Under the pieces are notes generated by a model. That model saw only the letters and a program-made list of their open reading frames with translations, was not told the origin of the DNA and made no database searches. A DNA stretch of 64,000 nt from NCBI RefSeq assembly GCF_000321225.1, contig NW_004450665.1, forward strand, positions 436,201 to 500,200. The letters are read 5' to 3'. The translations under genes were made by a program, and so were the position numbers. How positions within the stretch are numbered: position 1 is the first letter of the stretch; each line of letters opens with the position of its first letter. Source of the stretch: Odobenus rosmarus divergens (Eukaryota > Chordata > Mammalia > Carnivora > Odobenidae). Shown in pieces: positions 14,946-56,725 of the stretch.

Positions 14946-15142
14946 TTTTTTTTTAAGATTTTATTTATTTATTTGACAGAGAGAGAGATAGCGAGAGAGG
15001 GAACACAAGCAGGGGGAGTGGGAGAGGGAGAAGCAGGCTTCCCGCCGAGCAGGGAGCCCGATGTGGGGCTCGATCCCAGGACCCTGGGATCACGACCTGA
15101 GCCGAAGGCAGACACCTAACGACTGAGCCACCCAGGTGCCCC
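14946..15142 (-). mobile_element. Can-SINE (SINEC), antisense
   Basis: Poly-T and 'aagattttatttatttattt' at the left and 'gactgagccacccaggtgcccc' at the right (quoted in part). A short direct repeat ggtctgtt flanks the element at about 14933 and 15144. Reading frames across it are SINE translation. Confidence 0.95.
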
Positions 15143-35007: not shown

Positions 35008-35230
35008 TAAAAAGTCTTTCTGTGGGTCCCTAGGTGGCTCAGTCTGTTAAGTGTCTGCCTTTGGCTCAGGTCATGATCCCAGGGTCCTGGGATCGAGCCC
35101 CGCATCGGGCTCCCTGCTCCGTGGGGTGTCTGCTTCTCCCCCTGCCTCTCCCCTCTGGCTTGTGCTCTCTCTCTCTTGCTCACTCTCTCTCTCAAATAAA
35201 TAAAATCTTATTTTTAAAAAGTCTATCTGT
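35008..35230 (+). mobile_element. Can-SINE (SINEC), sense, with 16-bp TSD
   Basis: gggtccctaggtggctcagt head at 35024, 'cagggtcctgggatcgag' body, caaataaataaaatc tail. Flanks taaaaagtctttctgt (35008-35023) and taaaaagtctatctgt (35215-35230) differ at one position. Confidence 0.95.
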
Positions 35231-36053: not shown

Positions 36054-36273
36054 AAAAAGATTATCTCAGGGCACCTAGGTGGCTCAGTTGGTTAAGCGAC
36101 TGCCTTCAGCTCAGGTCATGATCCTGGAGTCCCGGAACCGAGTCCCACATCGGGCTCCGCACTCAGTGGGGAGTCTGCTTCTCCCTCTGACCCGCCCCCC
36201 TCTCTTGCTCTCTCTCACTCTCTCTCTCTCAAATAAATAAAATCTTTAAAAAAATAAAATAAAAAGATTATCT
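36054..36273 (+). mobile_element. Can-SINE (SINEC), sense, with 13-bp TSD
   Basis: Head gggcacctaggtggctcagt at 36069, 'ctggagtcccggaaccgag' body of the gttggttaagcgactg subtype. The duplication aaaaagattatct lies at 36054-36066 and 36261-36273. Confidence 0.96.
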
Positions 36274-36450: not shown

Positions 36451-36640
36451 GGGGTGCCTGGGTGGCTCAGTCGCTAAGCGTCTGCCTTCGGCTCAGGTCT
36501 TGATCCCAGGGTCCTGGGATCGAGCCCCGCGTCGGGCTCCCTGCTCGCGGGAAGCCTGCTTCTCCCTCTCCCGCTCCCCCTGCTTGTGTTCCCTCTCTCG
36601 CTGTGTCTCTCTCTGTCAAATAAATAAAATCTTTAAAAAA
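36451..36640 (+). mobile_element. Can-SINE (SINEC), sense, ending at the scaffold gap
   Basis: A full-length copy from ggggtgcctgggtggctcag to caaataaataaaatctttaa, of the 'gtcgctaagcgtctg' subtype. It abuts 50 N, and its 3' half is present again beyond the gap at 36691-36790. Confidence 0.95.
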
Positions 36641-36690
36641 NNNNNNNNNNNNNNNNNNNNNNNNNNNNNNNNNNNNNNNNNNNNNNNNNN
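36641..36690. other. Scaffold gap, 50 N
   Basis: Exactly 50 undetermined bases. The flanks carry the same SINE 3' half on both sides, so the gap probably joins contig ends that overlap instead of spanning missing sequence. Confidence 0.98.
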
Positions 36691-36794
36691 GCAGGAAGCC
36701 TGTTTGCTTCTCCAAAAAAAGCTCCCCCTGCTTAAAAAAAAAAAATCGCTGTGTCTCTCTCTGTCAAATAAATAAAAAAAATAAAAAATATATG
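36691..36794 (+). mobile_element. Second copy of the gap-flanking SINE 3' half, overwritten
   Basis: Starts gcaggaagcctg. It then matches the left copy with the 7 bases ctctccc at 36714-36720 and the 12 bases gtgttccctctc at 36734-36745 replaced by A; spacing is preserved exactly. After the tail, aatatatg at 36787-36794 resembles the start of the left flank's atatgctctgta, whose remainder would fall under the next A12 block. Confidence 0.85.
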
Positions 36795-38099
36795 AAAAAA
36801 AAAAAAAACTTCAGAATATATATGGATAACGTGGAAAAGAGTCAAAAACAGCCGTATATACATGATAATGAAAACTGTTCCATCCTGTGAGGAGTTAAAA
36901 AAAGCTTTTTTCCACCAAAAAAAAAAAAGCTCTATCAGTTCCTGGTCAGAACGCCAGAAAAAAAGAGAACTGAGTTCAAAAAAAAAAAATTACTTGAGAA
37001 TTACAGATAGGATAAGGAAAAAAAATCACTGGTAGAGGAAAAAAAAAAAACTTTCTGATATACTCATGTCGGCACACCTAAAAAAAGTAATCTTGAAAAA
37101 AAAAAAAAAAACCGAGCAGAAGGATGAGTTTCCACAGTGTAAAAAAAATGTGTCCCGGTAAAAAAAAAAAAAAGTTCAATCATCTGTATTGAAAACATTG
37201 TAAAAAAAGACAGTTTTTAAAAAAAAAAAAAAATGATGAGACAGATACTAAGCTCCCAGTAAAAAAAAAAGGCACTTTCAAAAAAAAAAAAAAAAAAAAG
37301 TATTTGAAATACACTAGTTTATCAAAAAAACATGAAAATGGAAAAAAAAAAAAAACTGAGAATTTGCCATACCTAGTAGTTTCTAAAAAAATTACACACC
37401 TATCAAAAAAAAAAAACTATATAAACACATTACAAATATGGGAATAAAAAAATTAATTTTTCACTAAAAAAAAAAAAAAAGGAAAATCTATAAGGTATAA
37501 CTTTCTAAAAAAAGGCGGATATCTGCAAAAAAAAAAAAATCCATTTGTCACTTAAGACTTAATGGCTAAAAAAAAACATGCAAGCGTAAAAAAAAAAAAT
37601 GCAAGATGCATCAACAGTAATTGCTTTAAAAAAAAAAAATAGAGTTTAAAAAAAAAAAAATATAATGCCACAACACTGTAAAAAGATTTAAAAAAATATA
37701 TACATATATAAAAAAAAAAAAATGTGTGTGTATTTTTTTAAGCCTTCCTGAAAAAAAGCTTTATTGAAATAAAAAAAAAAAAGTCAGAGAATAAGTTCAA
37801 GCGTGCTACATAAAAAAACTTCAAACCTTCCAAAAAAAAAAAACTTTCCATCTCACACCTACCCACCGCCATAAAAAAACAGACTTTAATTCAAAAAAAA
37901 AAAACCTTCCTCACTCACTGGCCTCCTTGTATAAAAAAAAGATACCAGAATATAAAAAAAAAAAAATGTTTTCATTTGCACTTTCTCTGTCTGGAAAAAA
38001 ATTCCCCAGACATTAAAAAAAAAAAATAGACAATGACCTTATTCATTTAAACATCAAAAAAAGAGTGAGGGCTGTAAAAAAAAAAAATGTGTTAAAAAA

Positions 38100-38500
38100 T
38101 GTAATCAGACAAAGAAAAAAAAATACCATATGATTTAAAAAAAAAAAAAAATCACTCATATGTGGACTCTAAGAAACAAAAAAAACAAACAAAACAAAAA
38201 AAAAAAAAAATTGAGGAAACAAACTTGGTTACTAGATGGGGAGGGGCTGGGTGATGGGCCCCAAATTGTCGAAGGGAATTAAGAGCTACAAACTTCCAGC
38301 TATAAAGTAAATAAATCATGGGGTTGTAATGTACAGCATAGGGAATATAGTGAATAATATAAAAAAAAGTATGGTGACAGAAAAAAAAAAAACTTGTCAT
38401 GGGGATCATTTCGCAATGTATAAAAAAATCAAATCACCATGAAAAAAAAAAAAAACTAATAGGATATCCTATATCAATTATACTTCAATTAAAAAAAATT
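38100..38500 (+). mobile_element. LINE-1 3' tail, sense, overwritten by the comb
   Basis: 'taccatatgattt', 'atcactcatatgtggactct', 'gggaattaagagctacaaac', 'tgtacagcatagggaatata', 'agtatggtgacag' and 'ggatcatttcgcaatgtat' are the familiar L1 3' end, running to 'atacttcaatt' and a natural A8 at 38491-38498. Two consecutive comb units are clean here. Where blocks fall, the expected bases fit exactly (for example acaaatg, 7 nt, at 38422-38428 and ttgtacacctga, 12 nt, at 38442-38453). Confidence 0.85.
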
Positions 38501-39043
38501 GCAATCTACACCCAACCTATTCTTCCATTCCTGTTGTAGTTTTAAAAAAAATTATCAGTTGCTAAAAAAAAAAAATTTAATTCTTTGCTCATTATCTGTT
38601 TTTTAAAAAAAAGAATACAAGAGTAAAAAAAAAAAAAATTTAGAATTTTTTTTTTTCTCTGTGGCAAAAAAAGTGCCTAGATCCAAAAAAAAAAAAAAGT
38701 GGGTACTTAATAATGTTTGTTGAATGAAAAAAAGGACTATAAAACAAAAAAAAAAAAAATGGTGCCCTGAAGATTGTTACTGAAATGTGTGTGCTGAAAT
38801 GCATGTATGTGGGGTTTAGGGCCAAGCAATCACTAGGACCAAAATGTTAAAAAAAAATCAATATTAACAAAAAAAAAAAAATTTTTTAAGTCATTGACAG
38901 ATATGATATAAAAAAAAGGGGCCAGAGGAAAAAAAAAAAAAATTATGAGTTAAAGAATGAAAGTTATGGAAAAAAAAAATATTGCTACTGAAAAAAAAAA
39001 AAGTCCTGATAAGGATTAAAGAAAAAAAAAAAAAAAAAGTACA

Positions 39044-39240
39044 GGACGCCTAAAAAAAAAAAACTGTTAAGCGTCTGCTTTCGGCTCAGGTCAAAAAAAC
39101 AGGATCCTGGGAAAAAAAAAAAAATCGGGCTCCTTGTTCAGCAGGGAGCCTGCAAAAAAATCTGCTGCTTGCTAAAAAAAAAAAATCAGTTTCTCTCTCT
39201 CTGACAAATAAATAAAAAAAATTTTAAAAAAATAAAAAAA
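39044..39240 (+). mobile_element. Can-SINE (SINEC), sense, overwritten by the comb
   Basis: ggacgcc head, 'ctgttaagcgtctgctttcg', 'gctcaggtc', then A7 where atgatcc is expected (39093-39099), 'caggatcctggg', A12, 'tcgggctccttgttcagcag', A7, 'tctgctgcttgct', A12, and 'ctctgacaaataaataaa'. The order and lengths match an intact SINE. Confidence 0.9.
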
Positions 39241-42014
39241 AAAAAAAATTAAAATTTAAAAAGGTGAGTAGTGATAAAAAAACAAATGTTTTGACAAAAA
39301 AAAAAAATAACAGAAAAGAGATGAAGCTAACCTTAAAAAAAAAATCTTTACTTAGGAAAAAAAAAAAATGAGGTCTGGATATAAATGACAACCAGAGAAA
39401 AAAAAGAATCATGTCAGAAAAAAAAAAAATTACTAACACATACTGTAGTTTCTTTGCCAAAAAAAAGGAGCTGGAGGAAAAAAAAAAAAATCAGGCCAAA
39501 AGTGAAAGTAGGAAATCATAAAAAAATGGAAAACGTGTTAAAAAAAAAAAACCGTATTGAGCTTGTTTTAGTTGGTTTGAAAAAAAAAAGGTGGAAAGGA
39601 AAAAAAAAAAAAGGCATGTTACAACAGATGATGGGAAATTAAAAAAAAGAACTAGAAGTGGAAAAAAAAAAAATCTCGGGAAGGTCGTGGCCGAGCCAGA
39701 ACAAAAAAAACAGTGATTCAGGAAAAAAAAAAAACAAGTTATTTGTATTCTATTGATGTTTTCAAAAAAAATACTAATATATTAAAAAAAAAAAATACGC
39801 GCGGGCTACTATTCTAAGCACTGTAAAAAAAGCGTTGAAAACAAAAAAAAAAAAAACCCCCCGCCCCCCGCCACCGCACCGTGGGAAAAAAAAAGGGAAA
39901 CGTGCAAAAAAAAAAAAAGGGATAACTACTGTGGAGATAACGGAGCAAAAAAAGGAGATAGGAAGCAAAAAAAAAAAAGAGGGACAAGCAGAGGAAAAGG
40001 TGGTATTAAAAAAACTATGGGGGCGGGAAAAAAAAAAAAGCTGCGGATCTCCAAGGACAGAGTGAGAGAAAAAAATCCAAGGACGGGCAAAAAAAAAAAA
40101 CTGAGGAAGGCAGGGGTCAGTGTGGCTGGAAAAAAAGGAGCAAGGGGGAAAAAAAAAAAAAAGGACGGGCTGGGGTAAGGCAGGCGGAGCAAAAAAACAG
40201 AGGGCCTTCAAAAAAAAAAAAAACTGGACTTTCACTCTGAACAAGACCCTGAAAAAAATGACGGCTTGGAGAAAAAAAAAAAAATGTGACTTACATTTGC
40301 AGAGGCTCAGCTAAAAAAACGTGTGCAGGGTAAAAAAAAAAAAACGGGGGCGGGGGGGTGGTTACAAGGTTTTAAAAAAAGGGGGCAGGAGGAAAAAAAA
40401 AAAAAGACCAGAGCGGTGTGGGGTGGGGGGGAGGAAAAAAACAGGAGTGCTCAGAAAAAAAAAAAAGAAGGTAGAGCAGACAGCATTCACGGACCGGTTG
40501 GAAATGAGTGTAGAAGAGAGGGCGGGGGTAGGGTGGGGGTGATGGGGGCTGTAGTGAAAAAAACCCCGGCTTTGTTAAAAAAAAAAAAAAGAATACAGTT
40601 GTCCTTTACTGAAAGAAAAAAAAATGCTTGAGGGGCAAAAAAAAAAAAACTCTTTTAATCTGTGGTGCTCTGCCTCTCAAAAAAATTGTAATTTATAAAA
40701 AAAAAAAAAAACTAGATTGTATAATCGGTGGAATTTCACAAAAAAAGGATTCTGCCGACAAAAAAAAAAAAGGTCATTTAGCATATTCCCCTCCCCCAAA
40801 AAAAAAATGTTTTCAGTGCGAAAAAAAAAAAAGCTGGCAGTCAGGACCGCGAGCTCGGTGAAAAAAAAGTTTGATTTTGCGAAAAAAAAAAAACAGGTGG
40901 AGTTGTGTACTTCCACCGGAAGAAAAAAATCCTTCGGTTTGAAAAAAAAAAAAATTAGCAGCTGTGAATAGCCATTGCTCAGAAAAAAAATGTTAGAAGT
41001 TACAAAAAAAAAAAACTCTAATCCCATCACTTAGTCCTCATTTAAAAAAAAGAATATTTCCATTAAAAAAAAAAAATCTGTGACGGTTCCTACAGGTAAG
41101 GTAGGAAAAAAACTGGATTCTTCACAAAAAAAAAAAAATATTCAAAATAACGAGTTAGTTACTTGGAAAAAAACAAGATTGAACATAAAAAAAAAAAATA
41201 ATGAACTCCTGGAATTAATAAAATACAAAAAAAATGTATTTTATTCCAAAAAAAAAAAATCTTACGGATGTTAAAAAATCATCCTTCTAAAAAAATGGGG
41301 GTTTCTGAAAAAAAAAAAAATTCCAGTAGCTTATTTGTTTATGTGACATAAAAAAACAGGCTTATCTTGAAAAAAAAAAAACCTGAAATCAGTCACTTCA
41401 CCCGGCAGCCCAGTTTCCTCTTAATGAAAATTCGTATTGAGTGATGACAGTCTGGTTCTACAGGTTGTCCTAAAAAAAGGCCTTTTCCAGTAAAAAAAAA
41501 AAAGACATAGGTCTACATTTTTTAAAAAAGAAAAAAAAAGGGTTCCTAGTGAAAAAAAAAAAAAAAATTCAGGAGTATGTAGGGTTATAATTTAAAAAAA
41601 TCAATCTTATATTAAAAAAAAAAAATCACACATTGAAATTTTCAGGGTCCAAAGAAAAAAAGTAATTACTTATTAAAAAAAAAAAACATGTAGAGAGCAT
41701 TTCAGTAACAGAGAAAAAAAAATCCAATTTTACCTAAAAAAAAAAAATGAAAGGGACATTTGTTGACAAGATGAGGAAAAAAATTCTGATTAGAGCAAAA
41801 AAAAAAAACAAAGATTCAGAGGCTTGAGAGAGCACAGAAAAAAAAAGAAAGAGCAGAAAAAAAAAAAAAAGAGGAGTGATGGGTTGGGGAGTCAGGAAAA
41901 AAAAAGAACATGATGAGCAAAAAAAAAAAACCATGAACCGTGAACGTTAGCATCAACCAAAAAAAAAAGCTGTTTTCTGAAAAAAAAAAAAATCTTGTAT
42001 TTAGTTTTTGGGTT

Positions 42015-42228
42015 TCTTTTAAAAAAATCATTTATTTATTAAAAAAAAAAAAGAGAGAGTGAGCAAGCAGGGGAGAGGCAGAAAAAAAGAGAGAGAGAGA
42101 AAAAAAAAAAAAACTCCCTGCTGAGCACAGAGCCTGATGTAGGGCTCCATCTCATGATCCTGAGATCATGACCCGAGCCAAAATCAAGAGTCAGCCACCT
42201 AACAAAAAAAGCCACCCAGGCACAAAAA
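42015..42228 (-). mobile_element. Can-SINE, antisense, overwritten by the comb
   Basis: 'tcatttatttatt' at the left, 'gagagagtgagcaagcaggg', then one clean unit with 'ctgagcacagagcctgatgt' and 'atcatgacccgagcc'. Near the head 'cacctaac' is followed by A7 at 42204-42210 where cgactga is expected, then 'gccacccaggcac'. The block is A on the + strand although the element is antisense. Confidence 0.9.
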
Positions 42229-43150
42229 AAAAAAATTTTTAATAAAAAGCATTTCTTTCTACTTAAAAAAAATAAGGAGAATCTAAAAAAAAAAAATTGA
42301 AGGATGGCGATCCTTAACTTTGTTCAAAAAAAGTTCAGAGAAAGTAAAAAAAAAAAATTTTCTACCACTTAAAGAAGTCCTTGCATAAAAAAAACCCATT
42401 TCGTGGAAAAAAAAAAAACACAGAGGACAAGGTGTGGACCATAGTGTAAAAAAATTTGCAGATGCAGAAAAAAAAAAAAGGCTACAGCCCAGAAAAGTAC
42501 TCTGTGACAAAAAAAGTGTATAGTGCCTAAAAAAAAAAAATCAGCGCCGTCACCAGCAGCGCCGAGCACAAAAAAAAGTACGTCTCCTAAAAAAAAAAAA
42601 AGTCGAGGTTGTTGAACACCCCAGGTAGGCAAAAAAAAGAGTGTTACTTTAAAAAAAAAAAACAGCTGGTGCTTGGAATTGTCTAAACAATAAAAAAAGT
42701 GTGACTTATTAAAAAAAAAAAAAGTCTCCAAAGTGCAGGCAGCTGTGAAAAAAAAAAAACATCACTTGGTTGAAAAAAAAAAAAATGAAACTAAAAAAGT
42801 ACAATTTTCAGAAAAAAAAACCATTGTTTTCAAAAAAAAAAAAAATCAATTTTACGTACATATACGTGTGTATGAAAAAAACTGGTGCTTAATTAAAAAA
42901 AAAAAATTTGGGCAAAAGTGTATCAGAGCCTCTTGTGAACTTTCAGGTAATACCTTCTGAGTTCTTCAGCTATCTTTAACGTAAAGCTGAAAGCATAAAA
43001 AAAGCTGCCCGAGGTAAAAAAAAAAAAAAATAGCGATAAAATTTAGAGCTCTTTATCAAAAAAAGTCATTTAACAGTAAAAAAAAAAAACAAGAAGTTCG
43101 ACCTAATTTTTTTTTCGTAAAAAAATCCTTTAAATGATAAAAAAAAAAAA

Positions 43151-43171
43151 GTGTGTGTGTGTGTGTGTGTG
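43151..43171 (+). repeat. (GT)n microsatellite within the comb
   Basis: Ten GT units between A12 and A7 blocks. The true array may extend under the left A block. Confidence 0.85.
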
Positions 43172-44125
43172 GTATAGAAAAAAAAAAGTTTCCAAAGGAA
43201 AAAAAAAAAAAATCTTTTCCAAGAGATCCATATGCTTTGGAAAAAAAGGCAGCAGATTCAAAAAAAAAAAAAAAAACTAAATCCCTCGGTCTATAGTATA
43301 AAAAAAAAGAAATAAAGCATGAAAAAAAAAAAAGAGAAACCAATGTTCACACTTTTCAGCCTAAAAAAACTCCAGGTGTGACAAAAAAAAAAAAATTTGA
43401 ACCCTTATGCCTCAGTATCCCAAAAAAAAATCATTCAAATAAGAAAAAAAAAAAATACTGCAGGTGAGTGAGAATTTCATAGGGAAAAAAACTAAATGCT
43501 TACTAAAAAAAAAAAAGCATTTAAGGACTTCACAAATAGCAAATAAAAAAAAGATTATTCTTAATAAAAAAAAAAAATAGAAGTGGCATTGTGCTACATC
43601 ACAGACCAATGGGCTATTTGCTGCCCCAAATCAGTGTTGGATTGGAGGCAGTATTGTGGGGAATACTAAAAAAAAGAGTTATAAAAAAAAAAAAAAAAAA
43701 TATTTTAAAGATTTGAGTGGTTTTCTTTAAAAAAAAAAGCCTTGTGCTAAAAAAAAAAAAGAGTATAACCTATGGACTCTTAATAAAGTAAAAAAAGTAA
43801 GTTGTGGACAAAAAAAAAAAAGACACTTAGTTCTTCTGCTGAGGTGGTGCAAAAAAACAGAAAGACGATTAAAAAAAAAAAAAAGAAGGTAAGCAAAAGT
43901 CCAGAAGACAGAATGTGAATGATCCTTCAGGTCATGGTGAGAAGTAGCTCAGCAAAAGCAGAGTTCAGTAACAAAAAAAAGAAATAAGGTTGAAAAAAAA
44001 AAAAGAGAAACTGGGGGCGGAAGGGTGTGCTGGAAAAAAAATGAACTAAGTATAAAAAAAAAAAACTGGGATTTTTTGCCCTGAAGGCTGGTGGAAAAAA
44101 ACAGACTTCGGCAGAAAAAAAAAAA

Positions 44126-44224
44126 ACCTGGGACATTAATAATACACAAATTGCTGAGCCCCAGTCCCCAAGTTTCTGATTCACTAGGTCTGAGGTGGAG
44201 CTCAAGAATTTGCATAAGTAATGA
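44126..44224 (-). mobile_element. MER20-like hAT fossil
   Basis: 'gctgagccccagtccccaag', 'tttctgattcactaggtctg' and 'gagctcaagaatttgcataa' match a common hAT MITE. It is readable because two consecutive comb units are clean. The strand assignment is a guess. Confidence 0.6.
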
Positions 44225-44650
44225 GTCCAATGGACTGAATTGTGTCCTTCCAAGATTTGTATGATGAAATCCTAACCAAAAAAATGACTGAATTTGAAAA
44301 AAAAAAAAAAGTAGGTAATTAAGGTTAAATGAGTTCATAAAAAAAGTGAGATTGGTGGAAAAAAAAAAAAAGGGAAAACGAGCTCTTCCTCTCTCCCACA
44401 TGTGGACACAGTGAGAAGGCAGCCATCTGCAAGCCACGATGAGAGCCCTCACCAGAAGCCAAAAAAACTAGCAACATGATAAAAAAAAAAAAGCCTCCAG
44501 AACCATGAGAAAACAAATGTGAAAAAAACCCCCCAGCTGTGAAAAAAAAAAAAAGCAGCCTGAGTGAATTAATAACCTGAGTAAAAAAAAATGACAACAT
44601 TGAAAAAAAAAAAACCACTCTGAAAACCACTGCTGTGGGCCATAAAAAAA
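44225..44650 (+). mobile_element. MLT1-type LTR (ERVL-MaLR), sense, overwritten by the comb
   Basis: 'ggactgaattgtgtccttcc', 'gatgaaatcctaacc', 'gtaggtaattaaggttaaat', 'agaaggcagccatctgcaag' and 'gcctccagaaccatgagaaa' follow a sense MLT1 LTR across several A blocks. Non-coding. The right boundary is uncertain. Confidence 0.75.
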
Positions 44651-46149
44651 CTTCCAAGTCCCTAAAAAAAAAAAATTCTTCCCTGCACTTGCACTTACCA
44701 TCGCAAAAAAAACTGGATCCTATTAAAAAAAAAAAAAAAAGTCAACCAAGGATGATAGAAAATACAAAAAAATGGGTGCAATTAAAAAAAAAAAAAAGCT
44801 TGTCAGCACTGAGTTTCATGAGTGAAAAAAAAATATTGAGGTGCATAAAAAAAAAAAAAGTCAATTAGTCTTCAGTCCTGGTGGGTGAAAAAAAGGATGG
44901 GGGCAAGAAAAAAAAAAAACAAGTAGCTTGCTACCATCAGCTTTATTTAAAAAAATTCTTCTCTTTGAAAAAAAAAAAAACTTTTGCTTTTTGAATTTTG
45001 CTCTGGTGGAAAAAAAACACAATGTGACTAAAAAAAAAAAACAGTTTACAGTTTGGGCACTAGGAGAATTAAAAAAAAAGTAAGCAGAATAAAAAAAAAA
45101 AAGTGCTGGTCTTGTTCTTCATTCCTTCCCTAAAAAAACCTGGATGCCCTCAAAAAAAAAAAAGCAGCCACTAAGAGGTCTCACACACTTACAAAAAAAC
45201 TTTTCAAAACCAAAAAAAAAAAAAAACCTCAGGAAAAATAGGATAAATTTTTTAAAAAAATATTTCAGTTACAAAAAAAAAAAAAAAGCTAAACATACTT
45301 TTTGTCAACCTCCAAAAAAAATTTCAGGGGGAATAAAAAAAAAAAAGAAATCAAGAGTTAATTGTTAATCTGCACAAAAAAAGATTATTTTCTTGAAAAA
45401 AAAAAAATTGTATTTCCAGACCTTTGTAGATGATTAAAAAAAATAATAGATTGTACAAAAAAAAAAAATTTATCCTATGCTGCTTGCCTGTATGTACAAA
45501 AAAATGTATATAATTTTAAAAAAAAAAAAATTAGTACTTAATAAATGTTTGCTGATTGAAAAAAAATTAAAATATATAAAAAAAAAAAAAACCTCATCCT
45601 ACCTTCAGGCAGTTGTTTTAAAAAAATTCAGGTTTGTCAAAAAAAAAAAAACAGGGCCACACTTCTGGAACTCTCATTTGAAAAAAATTGGTTGGGGCCC
45701 AAAAAAAAAAAATTTTAAAAAACCATCCATGGGTAGTTCTGAAAAAAAAACACTAAGAAGCAAAAAAAAAAAATTATGGTGTGAAGGTCTCTCATGTTAG
45801 ACAAAAAAATTTCACTTCTCCAAAAAAAAAAAAATTAGAGGGAATATTAGAACTTGTCTGGCCAAAAAAAAGAAAATGGCATAAAAAAAAAAAAACTACT
45901 TCAGCTAACCTAGGTTGGCATTGTAAAAAAAATTAATCCTTTTCAAAAAAAAAAAACTAAATGTTATACAGCAGCCTTCCCTTCTGAGTCATTCTTCATA
46001 CTCCCAATTTCTGTTTCCCAGGCTAGCTAATCTGTAGAACAGCTGAAAAAAAAAAAAGGAGTAGTTAAAAAAAAAAAATTCTTTATGATCGTGTTCTGTG
46101 TATGTCCAAAAAAAAACACAATTTAATAAAAAAAAAAAATTTGTTGTGG

Positions 46150-46348
46150 TTTTTTTTTGTTTTTAAAGAAAAAAATTATTTATTTGAGAAAAAAAAAAAA
46201 AGAGAGCACATGAGAGGAGGGAGGGTCAGAAAAAAAAGCAGACTCCCTGAAAAAAAAAAAACCTGATACAGGACTTGATCCTGGAACTCCAGGATCATGA
46301 CCTGAGCCAAAGGCAGTCACTTAACCAACTGAGCCACCCAGGCGCCCC
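46150..46348 (-). mobile_element. Can-SINE, antisense, overwritten by the comb
   Basis: Poly-T and 'gtttttaaag', 'ttatttatttgag', 'gagagcacatgagaggaggg', then a clean unit with 'actccaggatcatgacctga' and 'gactgagcc'-type head 'aactgagccacccaggcgcc'. Confidence 0.9.
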
Positions 46349-48134
46349 TTTAAAAAAATGTTTTAAGGAGGAAAAAAAAAAAATAATTGGGTTTTTTTTT
46401 TTCCTCCTTCCTAAAAAAATTCAATTTTAAATAAAAAAAAAAAACTTCTTAACTAAGACTGAATTATATTGGAAAAAAAATAGTAGTACTTGTAAAAAAA
46501 AAAAAAATATAAAGTATATTCATTATAGTCATGGAAAAAAAAATGAATATCAAAAAAAAAAAAAAAAGTTATGCACTTAAAATGTTATTCTTTATAAAAA
46601 AAGTCTTACCCTCAAAAAAAAAAAAAAGGCTCTATAGTTTCTAATGATACTTATGAAAAAAAATTGATTTTGTATGAAAAAAAAAAAAATTTTTATTTTG
46701 ATAAATGGTTGTGCCATACCGTTAGCCAACAAATGTAGCATTACTCATTATTGGTTTCTCACAACTTTACAAGAGTAGAAAAAAAATCTCTTCTTTTTAA
46801 AAAAAAAAAATTTAAAAATGGAATCAATTTTAAAGTAAGAAAAAAACCATTCGTTATGGAAAAAAAAAAAATTGCCATGTTACTTACTAATTCAGTTGTT
46901 AAAAAAAAGCTTTGTAAAAGAAAAAAAAAAAAGACAAAGTTACTTTATTCCATAGAAGAGCAAAAAAATTTAGAGGAAGGCAAAAAAAAAAAAGAATGAA
47001 CAAATTCTCCCTAAACAAAGGAAAAAAAAAATGGGTATCCAAAAAAAAAAAAAAGTTAACATGTTTTATATTTATAACCCCAGAACTGCAAATGTAGTAA
47101 TATCTGAACTTACGAAAGACAAAAATCATTAAACAATGAAATATAAAAAAAAAATAAATACTTTAAAAAAAAAAAATTGATAAGTTAGATACCAAGAGAA
47201 AGTTTAAAAAAATCCCACTTGAGAAAAAAAAAAAAAATCCTAATGCTTTTAGATAAAATATTTCCCAAAAAAAGGGCACAACCTATAAAAAAAAAAAAAA
47301 ATGCTCATTTGTATATCTTAGATATAGAAAAAAAAATCAACATGAGTAAAAAAAAAAAATCTGCAGAGTAATTTTAGGAGAGGGGAAAAAAAAAACTTCC
47401 CCTGGACCAAAAAAAAAAAATAAAGTGAATGACTCTGAGTAGTTGCAATGCCTTCATCAGATGACTCAGTGAGATCGTGGGAAGAGCAAGGAGAGAACAC
47501 TGAAGGAAAAAAAAAAATAATTTGAAAAGGAAAAAAAAAAAAAGGTTGCAGCTAACTAACAAGACCCAAAAAAAAAAATCAGAGCAGTAGGAAAAAAAAA
47601 AAATTAGGAAATCCTAACAATCAAGAAGTTAGAAAAAAAGAGTGTTAAACAAAAAAAAAAAAAATAAAAAAAGAAGAATGAACAAAAGAAAATAAAAAAA
47701 TGGTCAGTAGTGAAAAAAAAAAAAAGGAAGCCAAGCCTTGGCTTTGGCTGTTGGAAAAAAACTGGAGTTTCCTGAAAAAAAAAAAAGGTGGGTAGAGCCA
47801 CTGAAGAATGAATAGAAAAAAAGAACAGCAAGTGAAAAAAAAAAAAAAGTTCCATGGTAAGGAGGGAGGGCTAAATAAAAAAATGCTGCTTAGTCAAAAA
47901 AAAAAAAAAAAGCGAGGGTTTGGGAATTTTTTATATTAAAAAAAATGAGGGAGTTATAAAAAAAAAAAAAAATGGAGGAGGCGGTAGAGAGGAAGAGGAA
48001 AAAAATGTAAAACAAAAAAAAAAAAAAAAACCCCAGGAGAGACAAGACAATGTGGAATTTGCCTTGGGGGGGGGAAAAAAGAATACCTGCTCTGAGAAGG
48101 GAATAAAGGAAAGAGTAGAGATTTTCATTAAATT

Positions 48135-48310
48135 CTATTGACCGACACCGTTCTTGACATTTTATCTCCTTTAGCTCTCAGAAAAAAATGAACTAACTTT
48201 AAAAAAAAAAAAATGCAAAGTAGGGCTCAGAGAGGTGAATAAAAAAAAAAAAGGTCACTGTGAAAAAAAAAAAAAAAGCAGGGTTCAAACGCAAATCTAG
48301 CTTAAAAAAA
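48135..48310 (-). mobile_element. MIR SINE, antisense, overwritten by the comb
   Basis: 'attttatctcctttagctct', 'tgaactaactt', 'tagggctcagagaggtgaat', 'ggtcactgtg' and 'gcagggttcaaacgcaaatc' keep the reverse-complement MIR order across the A blocks. Confidence 0.7.
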
Positions 48311-51300
48311 GCCTTGCGTGCTTAAAAAAAAAAAAGAGCGTGAACATGGGGAGAGATCAGCCCCAAAAAAAAGTGAGGCTAGAGAAAAAAAAAAAATGGG
48401 ATCCACACATCCCATCTCTTCAACCAAAAAAAAAGAACGTTTTCCAAAAAAAAAAAAACTTTTTGTCTCTGATTAGAAATGCTCTTAAAAAAATGACTTT
48501 TGGTCAAAAAAAAAAAAACTGATTAATAAATTAATCTTAAGGGCAGAAAAAAAAAGGACAGCTTGACAAAAAAAAAAAAAAAGGTTACTGCATTTCAAGG
48601 TGCCAACCAAAAAAACTTTGAGGTGTGAAAAAAAAAAAAATTGACCTTCTAGAACTTGATGAAGACTTCAAAAAAATGCCATTTTATTTAAAAAAAAAAA
48701 ATGCATAGCTTCCTTTATTTTTAAATGACTAAAAAAAGAATGAAGGGACAAAAAAAAAAAAACCTATATCACACTGTAGAATTTGGCAAGTAAAAAAACA
48801 TATACTTAAATAAAAAAAAAAAATTGTTTGCATATCACCTTTAAAATCATCCAAAAAAATGACATCATAAAAAAAAAAAAAAAATAATTGATTACTTTGT
48901 GTAAATTATGTTTAAAAATACCTCTCTCCTCAACAGGATACTGAAAAAAAAGAATTTTACTATAAAAATCCCTTAAAAAAATCTAGTTTTATTAAAAAAA
49001 AAAAAACAAATATTTGTTGAATACAGAATACTCTGAAAAAAACCATGAGAATACAAAAAAAAAAAAAAATAGTTTTTTAAACAGCATTTGCCATAAGATA
49101 TAGAAACTTTCTTATAATGAAAATAAAGTTATACATCTTGGATAAAAGATTGAATAAAAAAAAAATTCGTAACAATTAAAAAAAAAAAAGGTATGTGTAT
49201 TTTGTACAGGAGGGAAGATCAGGAGCTATTTGGGAAAGCTTAGGAATGGGAGGAGAGAGGGGTTTTGAGTTCCATGGGCAAAAAAACCAGTCTAGGTTCA
49301 AAAAAAAAAAAAAAACCAGTAAGAATATATATATTTAGAAAAAAAAACCAAGGAATTGGCAAAAAAAAAAAAGGGACCTGGCTTGGCAAGTCCAAACTTG
49401 GAAAAAAAAGGCACTCAAGAAAAAAAAAAAAAATGCTGCCCATGGGTAGAGTATCTTCTCCAAAAAAAACCAAGTCCTTTCAAAAAAAAAAAAATCCATC
49501 CAGCTCATGTGGCCTGATCTCTCAAAAAAAAAGTCAACCGATAAAAAAAAAAAAAACATCTACAAAATACCTGCATAGCAACACAAAAAAATATGTTTGG
49601 TTGAAAAAAAAAAAAAGCCCAGCTAAGTTTGCACACTAAACTGAGACTCATAGTCAGCAAAGATTATTGTTTTAAAATGAACAAGTGAGAAATCCATTTC
49701 TAGAGTAAAAAAAATTTATTCCCTCAAAAAAAAAAAAAGGAGCTTTCTCTGTCAGCATAGACAGGTGAAAAAAACATGTTAGAGGTGAAAAAAAAAAAAT
49801 ATTCTCCCATCTCTCCATTCCCGATGAGAAAAAAAGTGAACCTGGTATAAAAAAAAAAAATAAAATATTTTATATGGTTAGAGCAATGGAAAAAAAAATG
49901 AATCAAGTAAAAAAAAAAAAATCAAGAAGTCAAAAACAAAGATTTTCCTTAAAAAAATTGTTTCAAAAAAAAAAAAAAAAAAGGATGCCTTTATTCCATA
50001 TTTTAGCCAAGAAAAAAAGTGTCCACCAGGGAAAAAAAAAAAATCACTCATTGTTGGCTCAGAGCTCCGCCTAAAGGAAAATATTTCCATTGATCCAAGT
50101 AAGTGTACCCCAGACCCATAACCTTAGGAAAGCAAAAAAACCCCCACTCCACAAAAAAAAAAAAAGTTTCTGTGTTTTTTCTTTTATAATTGAAAAAAAA
50201 ACCATTGCCATGCAAAAAAAAAAAAATGTTACAGAAGCTCAGAGAAAGTTGAAAGAAAAAAATTTTTTTTAAGAAAAAAAAAAAAAAAAATAATACACAA
50301 GTTTGTCTTCCAAGTTAAAAAAATTCCCACCAGTGAAAAAAAAAAAAATAAAATACTGAGTCTCCAAAAAGGCAGCTAAAAAAAATTATCCTGTTTGAAA
50401 AAAAAAAAACCAAATGGAGTGATGGGGTAGTTTTTATAAAAAAAAGAATAATGTTGCAAAAAAAAAAAAAAGTAGAAATGCCACAGCCATTTTGACCTTA
50501 AAAAAATATCTTAAATTCTAAAAAAAAAAAAAAGTCTTTTTGTTCCCCCTCTTGGTACTGAAAAAAAAATTCAGGCTAAAAAAAAAAAAAAATATATACT
50601 TAATAATGTTGTAAAATCTCTAAAAAAAATTATGATGAAAGAAAAAAAAAAAACATTAGTGTTTATTAAATGCTTACCATGGAAAAAAACATATATTGGC
50701 TCAAAAAAAAAAAACCCAAAACTTTGTAAATTATATATTATTAAAAAAAATTTATACCTGAAGAAAAAAAAAAAATTGGAACGGTTAATTCACCAAAGGA
50801 AAAGAAAAAAAATGGTGCTAAGAGAAAAAAAAAAAATTAAAATCTAGGCTTTTGTCCCTCTAGACAAAAAAATATTTTCTACCAAAAAAAAAAAAAAAAA
50901 ACAAACAAACAAAAAAAGAAAAACAAAAAAAAAGGGAGAGAGAGAGAAAAAAAAAAAAAGAACAAAAGAAAGAAAGGCTTATTAGGGAAAAAAAAATAAG
51001 CTAATTGAAAAAAAAAAAAGTTTTTCCTAAAGTGCAAAATTAGGATGTAAAAAAAGTACAATTAAAACAAAAAAAAAAAACATTTTTGTTAAGCAGGAGG
51101 CCAAAAGGGAAAAAAATGAGAGCTGCAAAAAAAAAAAAAAAAAATTCTGCTTTTTTTTCCCAATATTCTTAAAAAAACCCTGACAAGTATAAAAAAAAAA
51201 AAGGTTTAGATGACAATTTGTTTGGAACCATAAAAAAAAACATTTGATATGAAAAAAAAAAAAACATGCCTCTCTTTCTATAGAGCACTTGAAAAAAAAG

Positions 51301-51690
51301 TTTTAATATCAAAAAAAAAAAAAAAGCACAGGTGAATTGTATGTTGATGAAATAAAAAAATATTGCAAAAGGTAAAAAAAAAAAAAGACGTGAGATGTGA
51401 AAACAAAATGTTGAAAAAAAATTCTTTTCAGAAGAAAAAAAAAAAATTAAGCCTAACACACATGCCATGCCCCGCAAAAAAATCTTCTTAATTTGAAAAA
51501 AAAAAAATGCTCAGAGACCCTGCTAGAATGGGCAAGGGCAGAGACGGCCAGGTCTGCCTATGTCTGGGCAGTGCCTGAAGGGTGGCCCTAAGACACAAAA
51601 AAAAAGTCACCCAGCAGAAAAAAAAAAAATCTCTTAGGGTAGGGAATTGTTTTCTGTCAAAAAAATAAAACAGCTCTTAAAAAAAAAAAA

Positions 51691-51911
51691 AAAAGGGGGC
51701 GCCTGGGTGGCTCAGTTGGTTAAGCGACTGCCTTCGGCTCAGGTCATGATCCTGGAGTCCCGGGATCGAGTCCCGCATCAGGCTCCCTGCTCAGCGGGGA
51801 GCCTGCTTCTCCCTCTGACCCTCTTCCCTCTCGTGCTCTTTATCTCTCATTCTCTCTCTCTCTCAAATAAATAAATAAAATCTTTAAAAAATAAAAAAAT
51901 AAAAAAATAAG
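51691..51911 (+). mobile_element. Can-SINE (SINEC), sense, intact, at the right edge of the comb
   Basis: gggggcgcctgggtggctca at 51695 through 'ctggagtcccgggatcgag' to caaataaataaataaaatct and an A/T tail near 51911. Comb columns expected at 51720-51726 and later hold normal SINE sequence, so the comb stops at or just before this element. Confidence 0.95.
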
Positions 51912-56488: not shown

Positions 56489-56725
56489 AAAATGTAAGTG
56501 CTTGGGCGCCTGGATGGCTCAGTTGGTTAAGCGACTGCCTTCGGCTCAGGTCATGATCCTGGAGTCCCGGGATTGAGTCCCGCATCGGGCTCCCTGCTCA
56601 GCAGGGAGTCTGCTTCTCCCTCGGACCCTCCCCCCTCTCATGCTCTCTCTCTCTATCTCATTCTCTCTCTCAAATAAATAAATAAAATCTTTAAAAAAAT
56701 AAAATAAAATAAAATGTAAGTGCTT
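56489..56725 (+). mobile_element. Can-SINE (SINEC), sense, with perfect 15-bp TSD
   Basis: Element about 56504-56710 with head gggcgcctggatggctcagt and 'ctggagtcccgggattgag'. aaaatgtaagtgctt flanks it perfectly at 56489-56503 and 56711-56725. Confidence 0.97.

Follow-up and report, generated by a model that had tools for sequence, protein, structure and literature searches.

Do adenine blocks that return every 61 bases, over some 15,000 bases of a contig of Odobenus rosmarus divergens, belong to the genome of the animal or to the stored sequence that stands for it? The question is raised by a stretch within the window, i.e., the whole 64,000 nucleotides of DNA analysed here (NCBI RefSeq assembly GCF_000321225.1, contig NW_004450665.1). 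Two features define it, an assembly gap and the comb of A blocks that comes after it:

36641..36690, no strand: gap of 50 N, directly preceding the comb-bearing stretch
36714..51690, forward strand: comb of A blocks, 246 words at a 61-base stride, 219 of them overwritten and 27 spared

Register and limits of the A-block comb

Each overwritten unit is laid out as seven As (A7), 13 kept bases, 12 As (A12) and 29 ordinary bases, with a period of 61 and no drift. Base composition was tabulated by position modulo 61 over 36691-51690, the check that the initial annotation had proposed: A makes up 90-94% of columns 53-59 and 12-23, against 22-37% of the remaining 42, with sharp block edges. The table confirms the A7 and A12 blocks that had been placed in these very columns from 36714 to 51690, without drift. 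The columns flanking the blocks (52, 60, 11 and 24) carry all four bases at normal rates, i.e., the edges fall on whole bases. The column variance singles out the same register; among the periods from 20 to 129, only 61 (0.082) and its double, 122 (0.083), are outstanding, and the next best period reaches 0.0018.

The comb was divided into words of 32 bases starting at 36714+61u (u = 0-245, n = 246). All 19 block positions are A in 219 of the 246 words and not so in the other 27; one block complete without the other was found in none of the 246, and the chance of 19 As at 30% A is about 1e-10 per word. The comb had been claimed over 246 units. Its limits and its register stand, but it is not unbroken, as 27 of the 246 words (11%) are wholly spared. 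The overwritten total comes to 4,161 of 15,000 bases.

At the left end, 23 bases separate the 50-N gap from the first A block. At the right end, the final block closes at 51690, which is base 15,000 counting from the base after the gap, a figure indistinguishable from any end within 15,000-15,029. The word expected next, 51720-51751, is clean, and the final A run (51679-51694) extends four bases past the comb columns, like chance As elsewhere. The homopolymer-run list of the whole window contains no comb outside this stretch. A single-column period scan in 42 segments of 1500 bases (1-63000) placed period 61 for A on top in one in-comb segment, 45001-46500, its statistic being too weak to serve as a negative control.

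The 27 spared words fall into 24 separate runs, none of which shifts the register, and their spacing looks random (mean 9.3, sd 7.9). Base composition was considered as a cause of the sparing and rejected, GC and columns being alike in spared and overwritten words: with 27 spared words set against 218 of the 219 overwritten ones (the first was dropped), GC did not differ in the middle 13 bases (Mann-Whitney p 0.67), the next 29 bases (p 0.19) or the previous 29 bases (p 0.27), and the lowest p for per-column composition, 0.03 among 71 columns, is at chance level. The spared words at 42143 and 46291 lie within SINE matches, but there are overwritten words in SINE matches too.

Replacement of bases in ordinary DNA

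The window contains SINEs, which from the appearance of their sequence are probably carnivore CAN SINEs. Three of them bear on what the As have done to the sequence:

46176..46347, reverse strand: SINE within the comb, aligned gaplessly to clean copies
36557..36640, forward strand: clean SINE left of the gap, matching 36705-36788
51691..51894, forward strand: clean SINE after the last block (limits approximate, by eye)

The SINE at 46201-46347 aligns with a clean reverse-strand copy, 56504-56650, over 147 bases and gaplessly, with identity at 114 of 128 kept columns and at 6 of 19 overwritten columns; at all six of the latter, the partner base is A. Identity of the comb copy is likewise divided in the comparisons with 36069-36240 (120/141 kept, 10/31 overwritten), 51693-51835 (110/124 and 6/19) and 35024-35170 (101/128 and 5/19), the five SINE pairs counted being hand-picked gapless self-BLAST rows, of which one spans no block. 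Among the 60 self-BLAST matches listed (E-value limit 10, many of them weak), seven contain a single gap, and their two sides differ in length by 1 or 2 bases, never by 7 or 12; such gaps look like those that diverged SINE copies have. Close to the assembly gap, 36557-36640 agrees with 36705-36788 at every one of the 58 kept columns but at only 3 of the 26 overwritten ones, and therefore the three blocks there replace exactly 7, 12 and 7 bases.

Because the spared units keep their phase and the SINE alignments are gapless across the blocks, we read the As as replacing bases, and an insertion of A blocks, which would shift the register at spared units and open gaps in the SINE alignments, is rejected. 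Bases replaced at unchanged length, the mark of an overwrite, is what we observed. The kept bases have a GC content of 0.396, equal to that of the left (0.404) and right (0.397) flanks, and so the DNA beneath the comb is ordinary; our best reading of the stretch is ordinary mammal-like DNA in which 4,161 bases have been replaced.

Could such a comb still be a real genomic feature, i.e., a VNTR or satellite, or A-tracts that nucleosomes or selection keep in phase? In favour of this, the window does carry the sequence, and phased A-tracts do occur in nature. Satellite and VNTR arrays also share with the comb a fixed period over many kilobases. In those arrays the whole unit recurs, whereas the bias here is found in only 19 of 61 columns; the 42 kept bases are unrelated between units and of normal composition, and the 19 recurring positions replace other sequence. 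Furthermore, the drift is nil over 246 units, the blocks of each word are all present or all absent, and a SINE is cut by blocks without a change in length. We leave next to no probability to a real feature. The initial annotation had called the comb an overwrite, neither satellite nor VNTR, and the replacement in SINE copies together with the phase-keeping spared units bears this out. Its argument that a biological process accumulating indels could not hold the register is reasonable, but the gapless SINE replacement and the spared units that stay in phase are the stronger evidence. Judged from these alignments and counts, the comb is almost certainly an artefact of the stored sequence, overlaid on ordinary DNA. 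We regard it as probably a data error and not biology, and biological novelty there is none.

Candidate causes of the overwriting

The cause is most likely damage to the stored sequence by assembly or processing software. Damage from assembly, gap-filling or polishing, as a general kind, resembles the comb in that wrong bases run from an assembly gap onward in ordinary DNA, but the comb is strictly periodic, all A, and made of whole 32-base words. Hard-masking with N or X is similar in replacing bases at unchanged length; in the comb, by contrast, the fill letter is A and the stride is fixed rather than set by sequence content.

The initial annotation had proposed a file-level overwrite in a FASTA file of 60 columns, where each line and its one newline byte together take up 61 bytes. 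We simulated overwriting on random sequence at line widths of 60, 61, 70, 80 and 100 and as a single line, with the newlines overwritten or spared. A 60-column file yields a sequence period of 60 and cannot give the observed 61, because newlines are not bases; widths 61, 70, 80 and 100 give no 61 either, the two best periods being 60, 120, 121 or 101, or none clear. The sole simulated layout with 61 and 122 as its best periods is the single-line, i.e., newline-free, buffer. In its plain form the newline stride is thereby rejected; to save it, a stride that counts newlines would have to have been misapplied to sequence without any, and overall we hold this origin to be very improbable. The 61 register therefore indicates damage on unwrapped sequence.

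The best single account, to which we would give about an even chance, is that software blanked part of each packed 61-base record. When the damage occurred, the contig would have been in memory as base codes free of newlines, A being zero (a common coding), and divided into 61-base records such as would follow from a k-mer length of 61. At two bits per base, a 64-bit word has room for 32 bases, and a record would occupy two words, with 29 bases in one and 32 in the other. A faulty mask would then have blanked all but 13 bases of one word. Where a word is spared, as in 27 cases, the faulty step would not have touched the record. The arithmetic, i.e., 7+13+12 = 32 and 61 = 29+32, fits a packed two-word record without proving it, and the absence of any word with one block only means that the damage comes in whole 32-base words. 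That the comb stretch begins at an assembly gap also counts for damage to packed records. Several points count against it: composition gives no reason for the sparing of 27 words; the offset of the first word from the base after the gap, which may not be the true start of the contig, is 23, neither 0 nor 29; and the block edges on whole bases are explained equally well or better by a mask at base level. Also against it, no software known to us outputs contigs as 61-mers placed end to end. The end at base 15,000 hints at a chunk limit, which a packed record does not need.

A serious rival to the packed record is a base-level mask, deliberate or accidental, on a 15,000-base chunk, in which a script set fixed positions of each 61-base unit to A and passed over about one unit in nine. 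The mask could have served as a watermark, or come from a test fault or from a spaced-seed-like pattern copied back into the sequence. All four block edges lie on whole bases, the comb closes at exactly base 15,000 from the gap (15,000-15,029 would look alike), and the skipped units look random in both spacing and composition, all as such a mask would have it; yet the 32-base span and the remainder of 29 then become coincidences, and the round 15,000 was spotted after the fact. We consider a base-level mask quite plausible, at somewhat less than an even chance.

Returning to the packed record, the fault may belong to an assembler, gap-filler or polisher and be hitherto undescribed, zeroing part of every packed 61-base record in a contig; in this specific form we find the proposal rather doubtful. 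If it is true, the fault would recur in other contigs and in other public assemblies made with the same version, silently corrupting genes and variant calls.

Consequences, searches elsewhere, and the edges of the comb

The importance of the comb is one of data hygiene. The 4,161 overwritten bases suffice to corrupt exons, repeat annotation, k-mer statistics or variant calls locally, and the comb also makes long false open frames. The list for the window has 26 ORFs with a length of 110 aa or more; 12 lie within the comb, among them these two:

39774-40310, reverse strand: long in-comb ORF (ORF list)
43949-44467, reverse strand: long in-comb ORF (ORF list)

Such comb-made frames are long and rich in Lys or Phe runs, and gene-finding software could mistake them for proteins. 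Pfam gave no match for the 8 ORFs that were scanned, out of the 14 that lie outside the comb. At gathering thresholds, Rfam likewise gave nothing in the window, which also has no tRNA genes. Should the fault prove systematic, other damaged contigs could easily be picked out by its signature (A7, 13, A12, 29; period 61).

A three-unit comb pattern had no matches in viral contigs. In prokaryote contigs, it matched 17 stretches, in each of which the least A-rich match is at least 92% A between the blocks; these are plain poly-A tracts and were rejected as combs. The absence of the comb from both collections says little, as they consist of viruses and prokaryotes. A search of the open-licence literature with loose terms found no published account of such a periodic error, and it gave no support to our presumption that a gap of 50 N is typical of one assembler. 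The sea otter genome, as an example of a carnivore assembly, is reported to have been built with ABySS, for which k = 100 was picked from values between 60 and 120 (PMC5748697); nothing connects the window with it.

The edges of the comb deserve a brief description of their own. The 50-N gap is flanked by near-identical SINEs; it may be a false gap between overlapping contig ends, or the two may be young sister copies. From the match of 36557-36640 to 36705-36788, the two may be the same locus, i.e., an unmerged contig overlap. This reading is not certain, because, of these 58 kept columns, 55, 54 and 52 are matched by sister SINE copies within the window, and because the match of the left-of-gap SINE to the comb side continues leftward of 36705 only with an indel. 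At the other edge (51679-51720), the comb stops a few bases at most from a SINE 5' end, as seen by eye and with no N gap, and there may be a contig join or a filled gap at this point.
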